DNA of 64,000 nt, from the NCBI GenBank assembly GCA_903871335.1, contig CAIQGE010000020.1, forward strand, positions 1 to 64,000, in the 5' to 3' direction. The position numbers and the translations under genes were made by a program. Under the pieces are notes generated by a model that ran no database searches, was not told where the DNA came from, and saw nothing but the letters and a program-made list of their open reading frames with translations. Shown piece by piece: positions 30,336-38,196 of this stretch. Source of the stretch: an uncultured Actinomycetes bacterium (GTDB lineage Bacteria; Actinomycetota; Acidimicrobiia; Acidimicrobiales; RAAP-2). Each line of letters begins with the position of its first letter. Within the stretch, counting starts at the first letter, position 1.

Positions 30336-31595
30336 ATGGCGAACCAGAAACCGACAACGTCCCACTCCACATCTCGAGCGCCCGCGGCAGCCAAGTCGGC
30401 CGGAGGTGCAACGACGACGACCACGAAGGCCACCAACGTGGCAGCGACCAAAAAGGTGTCGGGCACCACGCGTTCTCGGGCACGCAACAGTTCCTCGTCG
30501 CCCACGCCGACGGCGAACCCCGAGGAGTTGAAGGCTCTGATGTTGTCGTGTGAGAGGTTTCTCAACGGACACGGTCGACGAAGTGTCGACACACACCTCG
30601 CGCAAATTCCCACCGATACCGAAATGGACATCTACGGTCGCGGCGGGGTGGTGGCGGAACTCGAATCCGAAGTCGCGACACTTCTCGGCGCAGAAGCGGC
30701 GCTCTTCGAAGTGAGTGGCACCATGGCCCAGCAAGCGGCGCTGCGCGTGCACGCGGACCGGCGTGTGACCCGTTCCGTCGTTTTTCACCCCGCGTGCCAC
30801 CTCGATATCTACGAAGAACGGGCGTACGAGAGGCTGCACCACTTGGTGGGCGTGACGCCCACCTCGATGATGTCGCCGCTTACCAGCGCGGACCTCGCCA
30901 ACGTGAAAGAACCCGTCGCCGCGTTGGTCGTCGAATTGCCGCAACGAGAGCTCGGCGGCACACTGCCCACGTGGGACGATCTCGTCGACCAAGTCGCATG
31001 GGCGCATGAACGCGGCGCGGCCGCGCACCTCGACGGTGCACGGTTGTGGGAGGCGGCTCCCTATTACGAACGCAGCGCGGGCAAGTCAATCGCCGACGTG
31101 GTGTCGCTCTTTGATACGGCCTACGTCTCTTTCTACAAGGGTCTCGGTGGAATTTCCGGATGTTGTGTCGTGGGCGACCAGCAGACGATCGACGAACTCG
31201 CCCTCTGGCGCGCCCGCCACGGCGGCCGACTCTTCGGCATGTGGCCACTCGCGGCCTCGTCGCTCAGCGTGCTGCGTCAGCGCAAGGACAATTTCGCGGC
31301 CTACGGCGCCCACGCGCGGGCGATCGCTGACGCGCTCAAGGGCCTCTCACACCTCGAGATACTCCCTACGCCGCCGGAGACGAACATGATGCATTGGCGG
31401 GTCACCGGTGAGCGCGAACAGGTGCTTGAGCGCATGCGCGCGCTGGCCCGCGACGACAAAGTGTGGATGTTCGCCGCCCCTTACGCGGTCGAGGGTCCGC
31501 GAACGCAGCGTTTCGAGTTCAACGTCGGCGACGCGACCATGGACTTCTCACCCCAGGAGATCCGCGATCTGGTCGAAAAGATCGTTGCGCCCTAG
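30336..31595 (+). CDS. threonine aldolase-like PLP-dependent beta-eliminating lyase
   Basis: Fold-type I PLP enzyme of the Beta_elim_lyase family. Blocks are IYGRGGVVAELESEVATLLGA, FHPACHLDIYEERA, HLDGARLWEAAPYY (PLP Asp and substrate Arg region) and VSFYKGLGGISGCCVVG with the likely Schiff-base Lys. The late NMMHWRV segment fits L-threonine aldolase-type enzymes, but substrate cannot be fixed from sequence. The first 60 or so residues are Ala/Thr/Lys-rich low complexity and not part of the enzyme fold; the true start could be later than ATG 30336. It stands alone after the pnp terminator and converges on the mannosyltransferase pair. Confidence 0.8.
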   Translation: MANQKPTTSHSTSRAPAAAKSAGGATTTTTKATNVAATKKVSGTTRSRARNSSSSPTPTANPEELKALMLSCERFLNGHGRRSVDTHLAQIPTDTEMDIYGRGGVVAELESEVATLLGAEAALFEVSGTMAQQAALRVHADRRVTRSVVFHPACHLDIYEERAYERLHHLVGVTPTSMMSPLTSADLANVKEPVAALVVELPQRELGGTLPTWDDLVDQVAWAHERGAAAHLDGARLWEAAPYYERSAGKSIADVVSLFDTAYVSFYKGLGGISGCCVVGDQQTIDELALWRARHGGRLFGMWPLAASSLSVLRQRKDNFAAYGAHARAIADALKGLSHLEILPTPPETNMMHWRVTGEREQVLERMRALARDDKVWMFAAPYAVEGPRTQRFEFNVGDATMDFSPQEIRDLVEKIVAP

Positions 31596-32866
31596 GGACG
31601 CTGAGTGACGGGCAGCAGGTTCGCGGGCCCCCGACGTCGTTGCACGACGATCATCGCGACGAGAGTCGCGACCATGGCGAAGAAGTAGGAGTTGCCGACG
31701 ACCGAATAGAACGCGTTCCAGTGCAGGGGGAGTGTCCCGTCATTCGGCGGCCACCAGATGACCTGCTGCCAGCAGGTGAAGGCGAGCAGCAGCGCCCACC
31801 ATGGTCCCGTTCGCGGTCGGTCGTGCGCCAGGGTTAACCACACCAACAGCGGCAAGAACCAGACCAAATGGTGCGACCACGAAATTGGTGACGCCAGGTC
31901 ACCTGTGAAGCCAACCGCGACCAGAGTGGCGAGCTGCGAGAGGTGCGGGGCGACGCGCACGGCCACGTACATGCCGAAGACGAACGCCACAGCCTCCAAG
32001 ACGGTGAGGAGTCCGTGGCTTAGGTATTCGTGGGCGAGGCGCTGAGAGGCGCCGCGAATCGACTGATTCGAGTTGTACCAGACGGTACCGATGTGACTCG
32101 CGTTAACGGCGTAGTGCTTCCAGTAGGTGAGGGTCCCGTGGAAGTTCACCGCGAACATGACGAGCTCGACGGCGACCAAGGTCGCGACCGAGACGAGTGC
32201 CGCGCGAAATTGACGGCGCAACACGAAGTAGATGACGAACACGAAGGGTACGAGTTTGATGGCGGTCGCGAGACCGAGCAGGACGCCGCGGGGAAGCCGA
32301 CGCTTCGGCCGCTCGAGTACGTCGTAGAGGACCATCACCGCGAGGACGAAATTGATCTGGCCGAAGTGAAAGTTCTGCCACACCGGTTCCAGCGCGAAGA
32401 CGGGACCGAGGAACAACAAGGTGGCGGCGCGGCGCCCGGCGGTTGAGAGATCGGGTCGCGCGAGACGCAGGGACGTGGAGAGAAGGGTCAACATGGCGGC
32501 GAGGTTGAGCGTGGTCCACACGAATGTCGCCACGCGAAACGGCAGAACCGTGAGGGGCGAGAAGAACAGGGCCGCGATCGGCGGGTAGGTAAAGGGCAGG
32601 TGCGGTTCGTACGAGATGCGCGCGAGATACAAATTCGGATCGGTCAAGTGGTGGGCGCCCATGAGGTAGACCCGAAAATCCAAGCAGGGCTTCACCTCAC
32701 TCATGGCGTAGATCAAGATCAGCGCGGGCACCGCAAGAACGGCACCAATGGCGGCGCACATCCGCGTGCGCGTGTTCGCGAAACTGACGAATGCGTCACC
32801 CCACCGGTTCGCGTGGGGGACGGGTGGGGCGTAGGTGAGGGGAGTATCGGGCGCCGCGAGGTTCAC
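31592..32866 (-). CDS. GT87-type polyprenol-phosphate-mannose-dependent mannosyltransferase
   Basis: Multi-pass GT-C glycosyltransferase (about 424 aa, roughly ten helices). An early Asp in CLDFRVYLMGAHHL and the PFTYPPIAALFFSPL loop are typical of the DUF2029/GT87 family, which uses lipid-linked mannose on the outer face of the membrane. GTG 32866 overlaps the stop of the preceding gene as GTGA; an earlier frame start at 32947 would overlap by 85 bp. It is paired with a PIG-V-like enzyme upstream, so both may act on one cell-envelope glycan or glycolipid (inferred). Confidence 0.8.
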   Translation of the reverse strand: MNLAAPDTPLTYAPPVPHANRWGDAFVSFANTRTRMCAAIGAVLAVPALILIYAMSEVKPCLDFRVYLMGAHHLTDPNLYLARISYEPHLPFTYPPIAALFFSPLTVLPFRVATFVWTTLNLAAMLTLLSTSLRLARPDLSTAGRRAATLLFLGPVFALEPVWQNFHFGQINFVLAVMVLYDVLERPKRRLPRGVLLGLATAIKLVPFVFVIYFVLRRQFRAALVSVATLVAVELVMFAVNFHGTLTYWKHYAVNASHIGTVWYNSNQSIRGASQRLAHEYLSHGLLTVLEAVAFVFGMYVAVRVAPHLSQLATLVAVGFTGDLASPISWSHHLVWFLPLLVWLTLAHDRPRTGPWWALLLAFTCWQQVIWWPPNDGTLPLHWNAFYSVVGNSYFFAMVATLVAMIVVQRRRGPANLLPVTQRP

Positions 32867-34044
32867 GGGGTCCAGACCCACGGACTGGAAACGATGATGA
32901 GGAATCCGAGGATCGCGCACGAACCAGCGAGGATGACGCCGAACCACCGTCGATTGAGCCTCGATCCGACGGTCGCGAGCAAGGGCGAGTCACGAAGGAG
33001 GAGGCGAGGAGTGATACCGATAATGGGCGAGAGCAGACCCATGAAGATCACGGTGATCACGTAGATCACGATCGAGAGATGGGGTCGGATGCGCGAGAAG
33101 AGAATCAGCATGATCACGGCGAGAAGCAGGCTCATGGTCTTGACCGGAGGATTGAGATTCGTGAAACCGTGCGCGATGAAGCTGTAGATCGCGTTGGGCG
33201 CACCGTTGAAGTAGTGACCACCCTGCCAACCACGCCGTTGGGCGTGGAACCACGTGAAGAACGAACCCGCGTGAAAGTAGAGGTAGGTAAAGAAGCCGAG
33301 TATGCCGAGCGGCGCGATCACGATCGCCACGAACGGTCGCCACGTCTTCTCGCGGTAGATGGCCAAGAGGGCGATCACGATGCAGGTGAAGACGGCCGCG
33401 CAACCAACGGGGTCGGCGAGTGAACACATGGCCGCGACGAGTCCCGCGAGCAGCCACTTCTCTCGACGCAGCGCCCAGATGGTGAGACACGCGAAGGTGA
33501 CGATCAGGCCCTCGGAATACACGAAGCTGAGGACCAAAGCTCCCGGCGTGAAAAACACGAGCGAGATGCCTCGTCGTGATTCCGAGAGGGTGCCACTGTC
33601 GCGCAACATGAACCACACGGCGAGTGACGCGGTAAGTCCGGTCACGAAGGCCGCCGTGAGGCCACTCGTCTTCCAACTCAAGGGCGTGAGCGTGTGCACG
33701 AGACGTACGGCGAGCGGCATGAGGGGAAAGAAGCCAAGATTGGATTGGGCGGCGTTACCGACACCCGGGGGAATCGAGTGCACGTAGCCGTTCTCCGCGA
33801 TGCTGAGGTACCACTGGGAATCCCAGGGCGTGAGCGCGTAGGTCAAGGTGCGGTGCAGGATTTTGGAGACCGCGAGAAACATCGAGATGACGTAGAGACG
33901 CGAGAGCAGGTAGATACCGACGGGAATCCAGAGTTCCTTGACGCGTACCGGTTCGGGCGTCGCGTGTTCCGAATTCAGCACCGCTCGTTCCAAGCCGTCG
34001 GCGAGACGGCGGAATCGGGAAGGGGTGCTGGACGTGTTCGCCAC
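32863..34044 (-). CDS. PIG-V-like GT-C mannosyltransferase
   Basis: About 393 aa with many membrane helices. An N-terminal loop carries PWDSQWYLSIAENGYVH, the D-x-x-(H/W)-Y motif of PIG-V and related GT-C enzymes, followed by NLGFFPLMPLAVRLV. The start is GTG 34044 with GAAAGG upstream; the longer open frame runs backwards into dapB and is rejected. It is translationally coupled to the GT87 gene. In mycobacteria PIG-V-like proteins act in protein O-mannosylation or lipoglycan synthesis; the acceptor here is unknown. Confidence 0.8.
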   Translation of the reverse strand: MANTSSTPSRFRRLADGLERAVLNSEHATPEPVRVKELWIPVGIYLLSRLYVISMFLAVSKILHRTLTYALTPWDSQWYLSIAENGYVHSIPPGVGNAAQSNLGFFPLMPLAVRLVHTLTPLSWKTSGLTAAFVTGLTASLAVWFMLRDSGTLSESRRGISLVFFTPGALVLSFVYSEGLIVTFACLTIWALRREKWLLAGLVAAMCSLADPVGCAAVFTCIVIALLAIYREKTWRPFVAIVIAPLGILGFFTYLYFHAGSFFTWFHAQRRGWQGGHYFNGAPNAIYSFIAHGFTNLNPPVKTMSLLLAVIMLILFSRIRPHLSIVIYVITVIFMGLLSPIIGITPRLLLRDSPLLATVGSRLNRRWFGVILAGSCAILGFLIIVSSPWVWTP

Positions 34045-34141
34045 TGGCCATGGACCTTTCGCCGGGAACTCGGCAAGTGTACTAATGATGGCTCCGAGGC
34101 GACATCGACGCTCTCGGAGGTCGATCTCGTAAAGTGCTGTC

Positions 34142-34891
34142 ATGACACGAATCGCCGTGGTGGGTGCCGCGGGGCGCATGGGCACGATGTTGTGCGCCGC
34201 CTTCAATGACGCCGAGGACACGACGGTGACCGCGAAGATTGACCCCTCGGATCCCACTTGCTGGGCGTCGCTCGAGGAAGTTGCCGCCGACGACATTGAT
34301 GTGGTGGTGGATTTTTCGACCGCCGAAGTGGCGCGAGCGTCCGTGGCCTGGGCCGCCGCGCACGACCGTGGGGTCGTCGTGGGCACCACGGGCTTTACGT
34401 CGGACGAGTTGGACCAGTGGGAGACGACCTACGCGAATGCTCACGTCGTCGTGGCGGCGAATTTTGCCCTCGGTGCGGTGTTGGCCCAACGTTTCGCCGC
34501 CGAGGCCGCGCCCTATTTCGATCGGGTCGAGATCATTGAGTACCACCACGACCGCAAGGTCGACGCGCCGTCGGGCACCGCTCTTGAGACGGCGCGAGTT
34601 ATTCGTGAGGCGCGCCGCGCCGCGGGTCGGGCGGCCGTGAGCGAACCCACGACCGCCGAAACCGTTAAGGGATCGCGCGGTGCGGACAGTGGCGACAATG
34701 TCCGCGTGCACGCGGTGCGCATGCCGGGGATGACCGCGCATCAGGACATCATCTTCGGCGGACCGGGCGAGGGACTCACTCTCCGTCACGACGCCTACGA
34801 CCGCACCAGTTTCGCCGCGGGTGTCCTCCTCGCTGTTCGGCGCGTGCGCGAACGTCCCGGTGTGACCCGCGGATTGGCACCGCTGTTGTGA
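34142..34891 (+). CDS. dapB: 4-hydroxy-tetrahydrodipicolinate reductase
   Basis: NAD(P)H-dependent step of diaminopimelate/lysine synthesis. The Rossmann loop GAAGRMG is at residues 8-14; the catalytic block EYHHDRKVDAPSGTA and the RMPGMTAHQDIIFGGPGE segment are both intact. Length is 249 aa. It is divergent from the mannosyltransferase pair with about 100 bp between starts; an inverted repeat CTCCGAG/CTCGGAG lies there. Its stop overlaps the double-TetR gene. Confidence 0.95.
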   Translation: MTRIAVVGAAGRMGTMLCAAFNDAEDTTVTAKIDPSDPTCWASLEEVAADDIDVVVDFSTAEVARASVAWAAAHDRGVVVGTTGFTSDELDQWETTYANAHVVVAANFALGAVLAQRFAAEAAPYFDRVEIIEYHHDRKVDAPSGTALETARVIREARRAAGRAAVSEPTTAETVKGSRGADSGDNVRVHAVRMPGMTAHQDIIFGGPGEGLTLRHDAYDRTSFAAGVLLAVRRVRERPGVTRGLAPLL

Positions 34892-36087
34892 GTGACGCGG
34901 CCGAGGCCATTCTCGACGCCGCGGGTCGCAACGTCATCGCCGTCGGCTTTCACGCCACCACCGTGGACGCGGTCGCGCGCGACGCGGGTGTGTCGCGCGC
35001 GACCGTCTACCGCGTCTTTCCGGGTGGTCGGGCCGACATCCTCGACGGATTCCTCGCTCGCGAGGTCGAGAGATTCTTCAGTGATCTCTATGACCACGTT
35101 CGCGACCTCGATGATCTCGAGGCCGTTCTCGTCGAGGGTCTCACCTACGCGCGCCGCCGCATCATTGCCCACCCGGTTCTCAACGTGGCGCTGGTCGAAG
35201 ATTCGAGCGTCCTCGAGTCCACGTTCTCCAAGACCATTGAATCGATCACCGCGACCATCGCCGAGTTCGTGACCTCCTACCTACCGCCCAGCCCTCATCG
35301 AGGGGAGCGGGGTGACTTCCTCGCGCGCATGGCGTTGTCGTATCTGTCCGCACCCGGTGCCTGGGACTTCGCCGACCCCGCCCAAGTCGAAGCGCTCGTG
35401 CGATCAGAGCTCATTCCGTCGGTGTCCTCCGGTAAGCGCGTATCGAAGGTGCGCCCGAGGCCGTTGCCGAAGGCGGAAAATACGACCCTGCAACAGCGCG
35501 TCGCGCGAGCGCTGCAGAAGGAGTTCGTGAGCGGTGGCTCACTCTCCATGGAGTCTGTCGCGCGCAGCGCCGAGGTGTCTCGCGCGACCCTGTATCGCGC
35601 CTTCCCAGGAGGGAGGTGGCAACTCGTCGGCGCCACCGTGGAGATCGAAACCGCCCGCATCCTCTCCGCGGTCGCCGCCGGGCTCAACGACGCTCGTTCG
35701 CTCGACGACGCGGTCGTGGGGTCACTGACCACGATCTGGCACCACGCGGCGACACACCCCGCCCTCACTCGTCTGCTCGCGGTGCGTCCTGATCTCATTC
35801 ACGACCAGATGAGATTCGCTAAAGCCCAACGAAACTTTGAGGTTTTCACGGCCCAAATGGCCCCGCTGCTCGCCCGCTGGGTGGGCCGCGAGGCCTCCGA
35901 ACGCGTCGCGGAATGGACACTGCGGGTGATGTTTTCTTACTGGTTGGATCCCGCACCCAGTTTGGACGTCACCGATCCGGCCTCCGTCGCGAGCTTCTAC
36001 AACCGTCACCTGGCCGCCGGCGTGGACGCCCTCGCCGCCCTCCCGGATCAACGGCGCGTCGCCGCTGTGCTAGGAAAGCGTCATTAA
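34888..36087 (+). CDS. tandem double TetR-family regulator
   Basis: One 399-residue chain carries two complete TetR units. The first has TTVDAVARDAGVSRATVYRV (helix-turn-helix ending at residues 35-48), and the second has SMESVARSAEVSRATLYRAF (ending at 230-243). The units are offset by 195 residues and each is followed by its own helical ligand domain, so this is an internal duplication that could bind DNA as a single-chain pseudodimer. It overlaps dapB by 4 bp and is followed by the ferritin-like diiron gene, so it may control that gene or itself. The ligand is unknown. Confidence 0.88.
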   Translation: MSDAAEAILDAAGRNVIAVGFHATTVDAVARDAGVSRATVYRVFPGGRADILDGFLAREVERFFSDLYDHVRDLDDLEAVLVEGLTYARRRIIAHPVLNVALVEDSSVLESTFSKTIESITATIAEFVTSYLPPSPHRGERGDFLARMALSYLSAPGAWDFADPAQVEALVRSELIPSVSSGKRVSKVRPRPLPKAENTTLQQRVARALQKEFVSGGSLSMESVARSAEVSRATLYRAFPGGRWQLVGATVEIETARILSAVAAGLNDARSLDDAVVGSLTTIWHHAATHPALTRLLAVRPDLIHDQMRFAKAQRNFEVFTAQMAPLLARWVGREASERVAEWTLRVMFSYWLDPAPSLDVTDPASVASFYNRHLAAGVDALAALPDQRRVAAVLGKRH

Positions 36088-36111: not shown

Positions 36112-37263
36112 ATGACGACAGTGGACAACAACGCACCAATGCTTTCGAATCAGGAAATCATCGGTCGCGAGGACATCAACGACCTACAGGCCATTTTTGA
36201 GTCCGTCGGTCGCGACGACGGCAGCGTCGTCAAGACGGTGGACAACAACTGCCCGACGATGTTCACGTGGGACTACGAGAAGGGTTCGCGCCCGAAGCTC
36301 GACAAGCTCTACGAGAAGGCCAAGACCGCGCAGTGGAATGGTTCCACCGACCTACCCTGGGACACGCTCGTCGACCAGGAGAAGATTGCCCACCAGTCCT
36401 ACCTCGACGGGTCCCGCGGACCGATCGCGTCAGCGAGCCTCGACGGCACGCAGTTGGCGACGTGGGGTGAGAAGGAATGGGTCACTCTCAACATGGAGTA
36501 CCAGAACTGGATGCTGAGCCAGTTCATGCACGGTGAGCAGGGCGCCTTGTTGTGCACCGCCAAGATCGTCGAAACCGTTCCGTGGATTGACGCCAAGTAC
36601 TACGCCTCCACGCAGGTGATGGACGAAGCGCGCCACGTCGAGGTCTTCTCCCGCTACCTCGACACCAAGTTGAACGGCCACTACGTGATGAACAGTCACC
36701 TCGGCCTCCTGCTCGACGACATTGTGCAGGACTCGCGCTGGGACATGACGTACTTGGGCATGCAGATCATGGTGGAGGGTTTGGCGCTCGCCGCGTTCGG
36801 GTACATGCACGCCATGACCGAAGAACCGCTACTCAAGAAGTTGCTGCGCTACGTGATGGCCGACGAGGCGCGTCACGTTGCCTTCGGTGTGCTCAGCCTG
36901 CAGGAGATCTACTCCGAGATGAACGCCGCGGAGATCCGCGAGCGTCAGGAGTTTGCCTTCGAGGCCGCTCTGCGCATGCGTGACCGCATGCAGGGTCAGG
37001 AAATCTGGGACCGCGTCGGTGTCACCCCCCGTGACGCCGCCCAGGTCACGATGATGGACCCCGACCGCGTTCTCTTCCAGTCGGCCCTGTTCTCCAAGAT
37101 TGTGCCGAACTGCAAGAAGCTCGGTCTGCTCGATGCCGCGGACGGTTGGTTGCGCACGAAGTTCACCGAGATGGGCGTCATTGCCTTCGAGGACTTTGAG
37201 GACACCACCTTGGACCTCGACGCGAACGCGGAGGGCTCTCCGGTCCTACGTGGCGTTGAGTAG
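36112..37263 (+). CDS. ferritin-like diiron protein (AurF-like)
   Basis: 383 residues of mostly helix. Two DEARH motifs at 171-175 and 251-255, with Glu142 (HGEQGAL) and Glu222 (MVEGLAL), give the four-helix-bundle diiron ligand set E...DEARH...E...DEARH. This pattern is shared by AurF-type N-oxygenases and related actinobacterial ferritin-like proteins; substrate cannot be assigned. It starts at ATG 36112 after a GC-rich site, 24 bp from the TetR-like gene, and is followed by dapA. Conserved placement in this lineage is recalled, not tested. Confidence 0.8.
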   Translation: MTTVDNNAPMLSNQEIIGREDINDLQAIFESVGRDDGSVVKTVDNNCPTMFTWDYEKGSRPKLDKLYEKAKTAQWNGSTDLPWDTLVDQEKIAHQSYLDGSRGPIASASLDGTQLATWGEKEWVTLNMEYQNWMLSQFMHGEQGALLCTAKIVETVPWIDAKYYASTQVMDEARHVEVFSRYLDTKLNGHYVMNSHLGLLLDDIVQDSRWDMTYLGMQIMVEGLALAAFGYMHAMTEEPLLKKLLRYVMADEARHVAFGVLSLQEIYSEMNAAEIRERQEFAFEAALRMRDRMQGQEIWDRVGVTPRDAAQVTMMDPDRVLFQSALFSKIVPNCKKLGLLDAADGWLRTKFTEMGVIAFEDFEDTTLDLDANAEGSPVLRGVE

Positions 37264-37299: not shown

Positions 37300-38196
37300 G
37301 TGTCCACTCCTCGCTTTGGTCGTGTCGTCACGGCCATGGTGACGCCGTTCTACGACGACGGTTCGGTCAACTACGCGGCCGCCGCCGACGTGGCGAGATT
37401 TCTCGTGGCGAATGGCACCGACGGCATCGTGGTCGCGGGATCGACCGGCGAGGGATCCACGTTGGGTGACGACGAGAAGCTCTCGCTGTTCGCCGCCGTC
37501 GCCGAAGCCGTCACCGTTCCCGTGATCGCCGGCTCCACGTCCGCCGACACGCAGCGTTCGGTCACTCTCACCTCGCAAGTGGCCACGACCGGCGTCGCGG
37601 GGGTTCTCGCGACCACCCCGGCCTACGTGCGCCCGAGTCAGCGGGGCATCGCTGGCCACTTCGCCGCCATCGCCGCGGCGACGGACCTGCCGATCATGCT
37701 CTACGACATCCCTTCGCGCACCGGTCGCAAAATCGCGGCCGCGACCACCATTGAACTCGTGCGCACGACGTCCAATGTCGTGGCCTTAAAGGACGCCTCG
37801 GGCGACCTCCCGGGCGCCGCACACGTGAAAGCCACCCTCGGGGACCGCCTCGATCTCTACAGCGGAGACGATGCCTTGCTTCTTCCCTTCTTGTCCATTG
37901 GCGCCGTGGGCGTCGTCTCGGTCGCCTCCCATTGGGCGGGACCCGAGTTTCTCGGCATCGTCGAAGCCTTCGACCGTGGCGATCTCGCGACTGCGTGGGC
38001 GCTCAACGAACGTGTCGCGGCGAGTTGTGCCTTTGAGGGAACGGACGACTACCCGAACCCTCTGCCCTCCAAGGCGGCGATGCGGGCACTCGGTCTCGCC
38101 GTTGGTCAGTGTCGCTGGCCGCTCGGACCGAGTGACGATGTGCTCGATGACCGCGCGTCTGCCATCGTGAATGAATTGCACGCCCACCGTGGCTAA
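37300..38196 (+). CDS. dapA: 4-hydroxy-tetrahydrodipicolinate synthase
   Basis: Condenses pyruvate and aspartate semialdehyde, the entry step to lysine/DAP. TIM barrel of 298 aa with GSTGEGSTL (residues 48-56), Tyr135 in YDIPSRTG and the Schiff-base Lys164 in VVALKDASGD. The start is GTG 37300. The end overlaps the RNase J start. Confidence 0.95.
   Translation: MSTPRFGRVVTAMVTPFYDDGSVNYAAAADVARFLVANGTDGIVVAGSTGEGSTLGDDEKLSLFAAVAEAVTVPVIAGSTSADTQRSVTLTSQVATTGVAGVLATTPAYVRPSQRGIAGHFAAIAAATDLPIMLYDIPSRTGRKIAAATTIELVRTTSNVVALKDASGDLPGAAHVKATLGDRLDLYSGDDALLLPFLSIGAVGVVSVASHWAGPEFLGIVEAFDRGDLATAWALNERVAASCAFEGTDDYPNPLPSKAAMRALGLAVGQCRWPLGPSDDVLDDRASAIVNELHAHRG

Follow-up and report, generated by a model that had tools for sequence, protein, structure and literature searches.

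Does the open frame that follows dapB at this locus encode one regulator or two, how did such a chain come about, and what might it control? We analyzed a 64,000-nucleotide stretch of DNA (the window, from a 2.23-Mb draft genome) in which a single open frame with a GTG start (34888–36087, plus strand) encodes 399 amino acids. The original prediction that this chain holds two full TetR units was borne out: the Pfam TetR_N profile matched two stretches of the product (E = 1.5e-16, 60.3 bits against a cut-off of 24), and the N- and C-terminal halves could be aligned with each other at 28% identity across 162 residues (E = 1e-13). Both recognition-helix strings that had been quoted, VSRATVYRVFPGG and VSRATLYRAFPGG, are present in the frame. 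The N-terminal unit, TetR-A (residues 1–180; 34888–35427), has a TetR_N match at residues 8–46, HTH helices at about residues 26–43, and nine predicted helices; the C-terminal unit, TetR-B (residues 201–399; 35488–36087), has the second TetR_N stretch, HTH helices at about residues 221–238, and eleven predicted helices between residues 201 and 395, the last of low confidence (from residue 389). A linker of residues 181–200 (35428–35487) joins them. The start codon overlaps the stop of dapB (34142–34891), as predicted, in the tetranucleotide GTGA at 34888–34891. A gene for a 383-residue diiron ferritin-like, R2-like oxidase, here called F (36112–37263), begins 24 bp after the regulator’s stop, and dapA (37300–38196) lies beyond it, all on the plus strand; both dap genes were identified by Pfam and locus comparison. 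Directly upstream of dapB, the window has two minus-strand ORFs (451 and 508 residues; 31592–34389), at a place where many relatives have a pnp/M16 block or a large conserved ORF.

We found the same fusion in relatives. A search of the family matched 116 of 172 genomes at a threshold of 0.001, and the full-length fused protein was present in 11 of the 172, all within the window’s genus (99 genomes); the other matches in the genus (E between 1e-3 and 1e-8) were counted as generic TetRs. The ten further proteins are 35–79% identical to that of the window (a second comparison gave 80% for G164, contig C67), and A and B share one ORF at all ten fetched loci. Outside the genus, the loci fetched from 17 further genera of the family carry A and B as two genes (56 loci have both). 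The search of the order gave matches at 1e-12 in 148 of 397 genomes, and we fetched 51 loci from 22 other families, most of them picked for closely spaced matches to A and to B; every one has two separate genes except that of G415. Further fusions hinted at by open-frame lengths in the genome search turned out to be separate frames when the ORFs were read. In the phylum, 89 of 396 genomes matched at 1e-10; one genome from within the class, G566, groups dapB, A, B, and F at one locus, and outside the class the matches listed comprise one TetR unit each. There, one locus (G677, contig C86, 2633–4715) has a pair of TetR-like matches separated by about 1.1 kb.

The fused gene is an in-frame fusion of adjacent old paralogues. 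A tree of 108 half-proteins resolves A and B as separate clades (support of 100 each), which places the two units in distinct TetR subgroups; the 11 fused N-terminal halves make up one clade inside A (SH-aLRT 100) and the 11 fused C-terminal halves one clade inside B (SH-aLRT 99), with long branches of 0.73 and 0.88 leading to them. A recent internal duplication was therefore rejected. In G415, a member of a different family (f14), an open frame of 426 residues (L191:4568–5848) holds A and B with a longer, proline-rich linker, and its halves each pair with those of the unfused G377 of the same family (support of 82 and 94). Since the G415 halves group with this unfused relative, the fusion arose at least twice among the sampled genomes. 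When outgroups were added, A and B grouped together with a support of 84; the outgroups were picked by similarity and one branch is very long, and the grouping is weakly suggestive of an old duplication behind the pair.

The unfused relatives share a widely recurring gene order: pnp, M16, dapB, A, B, F, dapA, and rnj (pnp and M16 are our own reading of the sequences; the other names come from Pfam). Across the sampled loci, dapB and dapA usually flank the A and B genes together with the adjacent F. The order is not universal: no dapB turned up close to A in g5, g6, and several further families, and neither dap gene was found within 11 kb in G211. A and B are at least 400 bp apart in 22 of 105 pairs. 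In one genome of f9 (G235; L189:4838–7400), A lies on the strand opposite to B and F, the sole such case in the 105 pairs. The original prediction asked whether the ferritin-like gene always lies downstream, and for the unfused genes this largely holds: F follows within 500 bp at 104 of 107 unfused B loci, and the remaining three run off their contigs (124 loci were fetched, and six without a B assignment were left out: L057, L076, L077, where the second TetR was assigned by score to A and not to B, L079, L112, and L192). It fails at the fused loci, of which there are 12 (the window, the ten genus loci, and G415): F is present in six and absent, with room for it, in six, and no F match was found anywhere in those six genomes, G415 among them.

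Members of the block can also be missing. Six genomes, five of f7 and one of f53 (L258–L261, L263, and L264), selected for a match to a single unit only, carry B with F at the locus but lack A there. B can therefore probably act without A, presumably as an ordinary homodimer. In three g14 genomes (L254–L256) and in G042 (L112), F is kept between dapB and dapA with both regulator genes missing from the locus. It directly follows dapB in the g14 genomes (a fourth g14 genome is cut at a contig start), and about 3.7 kb separate dapB from F in G042. Within the window’s genus, dapA was matched in 94 of 99 genomes; 24 of the 30 dapA loci listed have dapB directly beside dapA, with no regulator or F, and six have the fused gene. 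The genus thus shows three states of the locus: dapB-AB-F-dapA, dapB-AB-dapA, and dapB-dapA.

Among known regulators, the nearest to the fused protein is Mce3R of Mycobacterium tuberculosis (Rv1963c; PDB ID code 9b7y), also a single chain of about 400 residues with two complete TetR units. According to the report on its structure (PMC11667970), Mce3R belongs to an infrequent subfamily of double TetR-family regulators (TFRs), of which it gave the first structure in 2024 and of which an earlier prediction cited there counted 204 in actinomycetes. Double TetR repressors are thus already known, and the window’s protein is a further member of that kind, one with unfused relatives at hand. When the PDB was searched with a profile, Mce3R ranked first (5.7e-10), with ordinary TetRs right behind (1.5e-9). 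By sequence, however, only one HTH matches (E = 0.013 over residues 3–52; positions 3–59 in the profile search), and identity in structural alignments is 16–17%. If the phmmer alignment of residues 3–52 to 14–63 is gapless, Arg53, a DNA-binding residue of Mce3R, aligns with R42, which is invariant here. We rejected the idea that the window’s protein is an Mce3R orthologue, since sequence homology extends to one HTH and not to both units and since the neighbors are dapB, F, dapA, and RNase J rather than mce or yrbE genes.

An AlphaFold2 model of the whole chain had a mean pLDDT of 84.7 and a pTM of 0.81, with values below 50 only at residues 389–399. The model rests on the 11 fused sequences as input, because an alignment that combined these with A and B proteins was dropped after MAFFT had placed B proteins on the N-terminal half. 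The sole Foldseek match under E = 1e-3 was 9b7y, across the chain (TM 0.45, rmsd 9.0), and VIA also ranked Mce3R first (Z = 15.8; 333 residues spanning model residues 1–384; rmsd 7.5), with single-unit TetRs at 14.3. Each half matches well, and a common geometry of the whole chain, including the arrangement of the two domains, is only suggested, given an rmsd of 7.5–9.0, a TM of 0.45, and a Z score little above that of single TetRs. An asymmetric four-helix bundle formed within the chain around a single ligand-binding module, as in Mce3R, may be present: the pTM is 0.81 and 9b7y is the best match, but at that rmsd. By analogy with Mce3R, the chain most likely folds into one TetR-like pseudodimer.

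We then considered the DNA that such a chain would read. The original prediction proposed an asymmetric operator, an idea that finds no support in the window, where the recognition helices VSRATVYRVFPGGR and VSRATLYRAFPGGR differ at two of 14 columns. Because they are nearly alike, the operator here is expected to be near-palindromic, in contrast to the nonpalindromic site described for Mce3R in PMC11667970. Among 105 A/B pairs (104 split pairs and the fused G415), the motif SRAT(V/L/I)YR occurs in nearly all members of both sets, and the clearest difference is the residue that follows it, mostly Y or H in A and V, A, or L in B. The other fused members differ more: identity between A and B helices over the 14 columns averages 0.61 in the 11 fused proteins vs. 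0.784 in the pairs, the lower agreement being most visible in G170, G105, G171, and G111, and asymmetry may have grown after fusion in these members. Helices of the same genome were slightly more alike than permuted ones in the pairs (0.784 vs. 0.767; 1 of 1,000 permutations as high), a comparison confounded by kinship, and not significantly so in the fused members (102 of 1,000 as high, with the same confounding). Shared 6-mers were sought in the 160 bp that precede each of A, B, and F at family loci from 17–19 genera, and none rose above shuffles.

Taken together, we consider it probable, if well short of assured, that the window encodes a single-chain double-TFR repressor that acts as an Mce3R-like pseudodimer on one operator and represses its own operon, including F, and at least one further target. 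The A and B halves would fold together through their C-terminal helices, as in Mce3R, and both HTH units would sit on one operator, near-palindromic in the window’s case. An apolar, perhaps lipid-like ligand would cause release; the one hint of its nature is the appearance of the lipid-responsive single-unit TetRs FadR, AlkX, KstR, and FasR in the Foldseek list. Besides its own operon with F, the repressor would control at least one further target, as the fused gene persists in genomes that have lost F.

A more tentative proposal, to which we give somewhat less than even credence, is that TetR-A and TetR-B form a preferred or obligate heterodimer, that the two fusions record it, and that the genomes present a series from B alone through the A/B pair to the single-chain pseudodimer. 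In the 104 split pairs (effective depth of 75 sequences), we asked whether the A–B position pairs with the highest mutual information concentrate at the helix 8/9 interface. One of the top 50 pairs of positions fell there, against 4.07 expected or 3.3 with narrower limits, and the larger sets gave 6 of 100 (6.6 expected) and 11 of 200 (13.1 expected), so no excess of co-evolution at the dimer interface was seen at this depth. The control recovered helical periodicity inside each protein, at 7 of 50 and 13 of 50 vs. 1.7. This result, together with the loci that have B only, disfavors a strict A/B heterodimer before fusion.

The same observations lend something to a model of two symmetric repressors on one string, in which A pairs with A and B with B across two chains, the two resulting ordinary dimers, held together, each read a palindrome, and fusion fixes only stoichiometry or co-expression. 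B stands without A at the locus in six sampled genomes, the interface carries no A–B co-evolution signal, and the recognition helices of the split pairs are so nearly alike that homodimers of either protein would read similar sites. Against it, the authors of the Mce3R work (PMC11667970) posed this very model and report the intramolecular M1–M2 fold as the functional form; the whole window chain, moreover, was predicted as one arrangement (pTM of 0.81). We therefore regard paired symmetric dimers as unlikely and the single-chain pseudodimer as the preferred reading.

Less plausible still is that the fusion is a neutral by-product, a stop codon and spacer lost in small genomes, with A and B having no joint function and each half working alone; we think this improbable. 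The 11 fused genomes of the genus are indeed small (1.2–2.2 Mb), and the three states of the locus are what an eroding block would leave. Yet the same pair was fused at least twice, the listed matches from the genus include no unfused A/B pair, and both halves are under purifying selection, the linker being freer: in five pairs of fused genes, dN/dS was 0.02–0.19 in both halves and 0.26–0.94 in the linker, rough ratios because dS is near saturation in several pairs. Two pairs that lack F (G170/G105 and G170/G171; dN/dS of 0.020–0.075) are constrained to the same degree as two pairs that have it. Finally, an artefact that wrongly joined two genes in assembly or sequencing, the objection foreseen in the original prediction, can be rejected: relatives do carry two genes, but 11 genomes carry the fusion, the other ten at 35–79% identity to the window and all in frame with linkers of differing length.

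In related genomes the pair is found unfused, fused on two separate occasions, reduced to B only, and stripped of the partner gene, and such a series makes possible a direct test of whether fused repressors begin as heterodimers and of what fusion changes. The heterodimer reading, if true, would be unusual in a family of homodimers, and the window illustrates how a rare two-in-one repressor can arise. A literature search on natural TetR heterodimers or fusions returned nothing relevant except uses of scTetR (the word start “tetr” drew many chemistry papers), and it found no double TetR with an unfused pair still in neighboring genera. scTetR was engineered from TetR by placing two monomers in one chain, which forms an intramolecular dimer; the window’s protein, in contrast, is natural and derives from two diverged paralogues.

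The conserved partner F had been described as AurF-like. A diiron ferritin-like gene does lie downstream, but its likeness to AurF is weak: it scored 24.3 bits against the Pfam AurF gathering score of 29.6, and in predicted fold it comes closest to R2-like ligand-binding oxidases (R2lox). Like these, F combines a ferritin-like fold with E ... ExxH, E ... ExxH metal sites, and the ligands E142, E172xxH175, E222, and E252xxH255 are invariant in 50 alignment rows. It differs from them in sequence, with 18–20% identity in the leading R2lox rows and an NCBIfam score of 40.2 against a cut-off of 194. The residues of the R2lox Val–Tyr ether cross-link (V72 and Y162, named in R2lox along with E69) are replaced in F by A145, three residues after the first ligand, and M217, five before the third, both invariant; we take M217 to be the Y162 position from the presumed number and spacing of the third R2lox ligand. 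Since the cross-link residues are absent, F is not an R2lox proper. In f29, a second F-like gene lies beside F (L157:6787–8996 and L160:2920–5118), and many genomes of the family carry an F paralogue of about 50–55% identity elsewhere.
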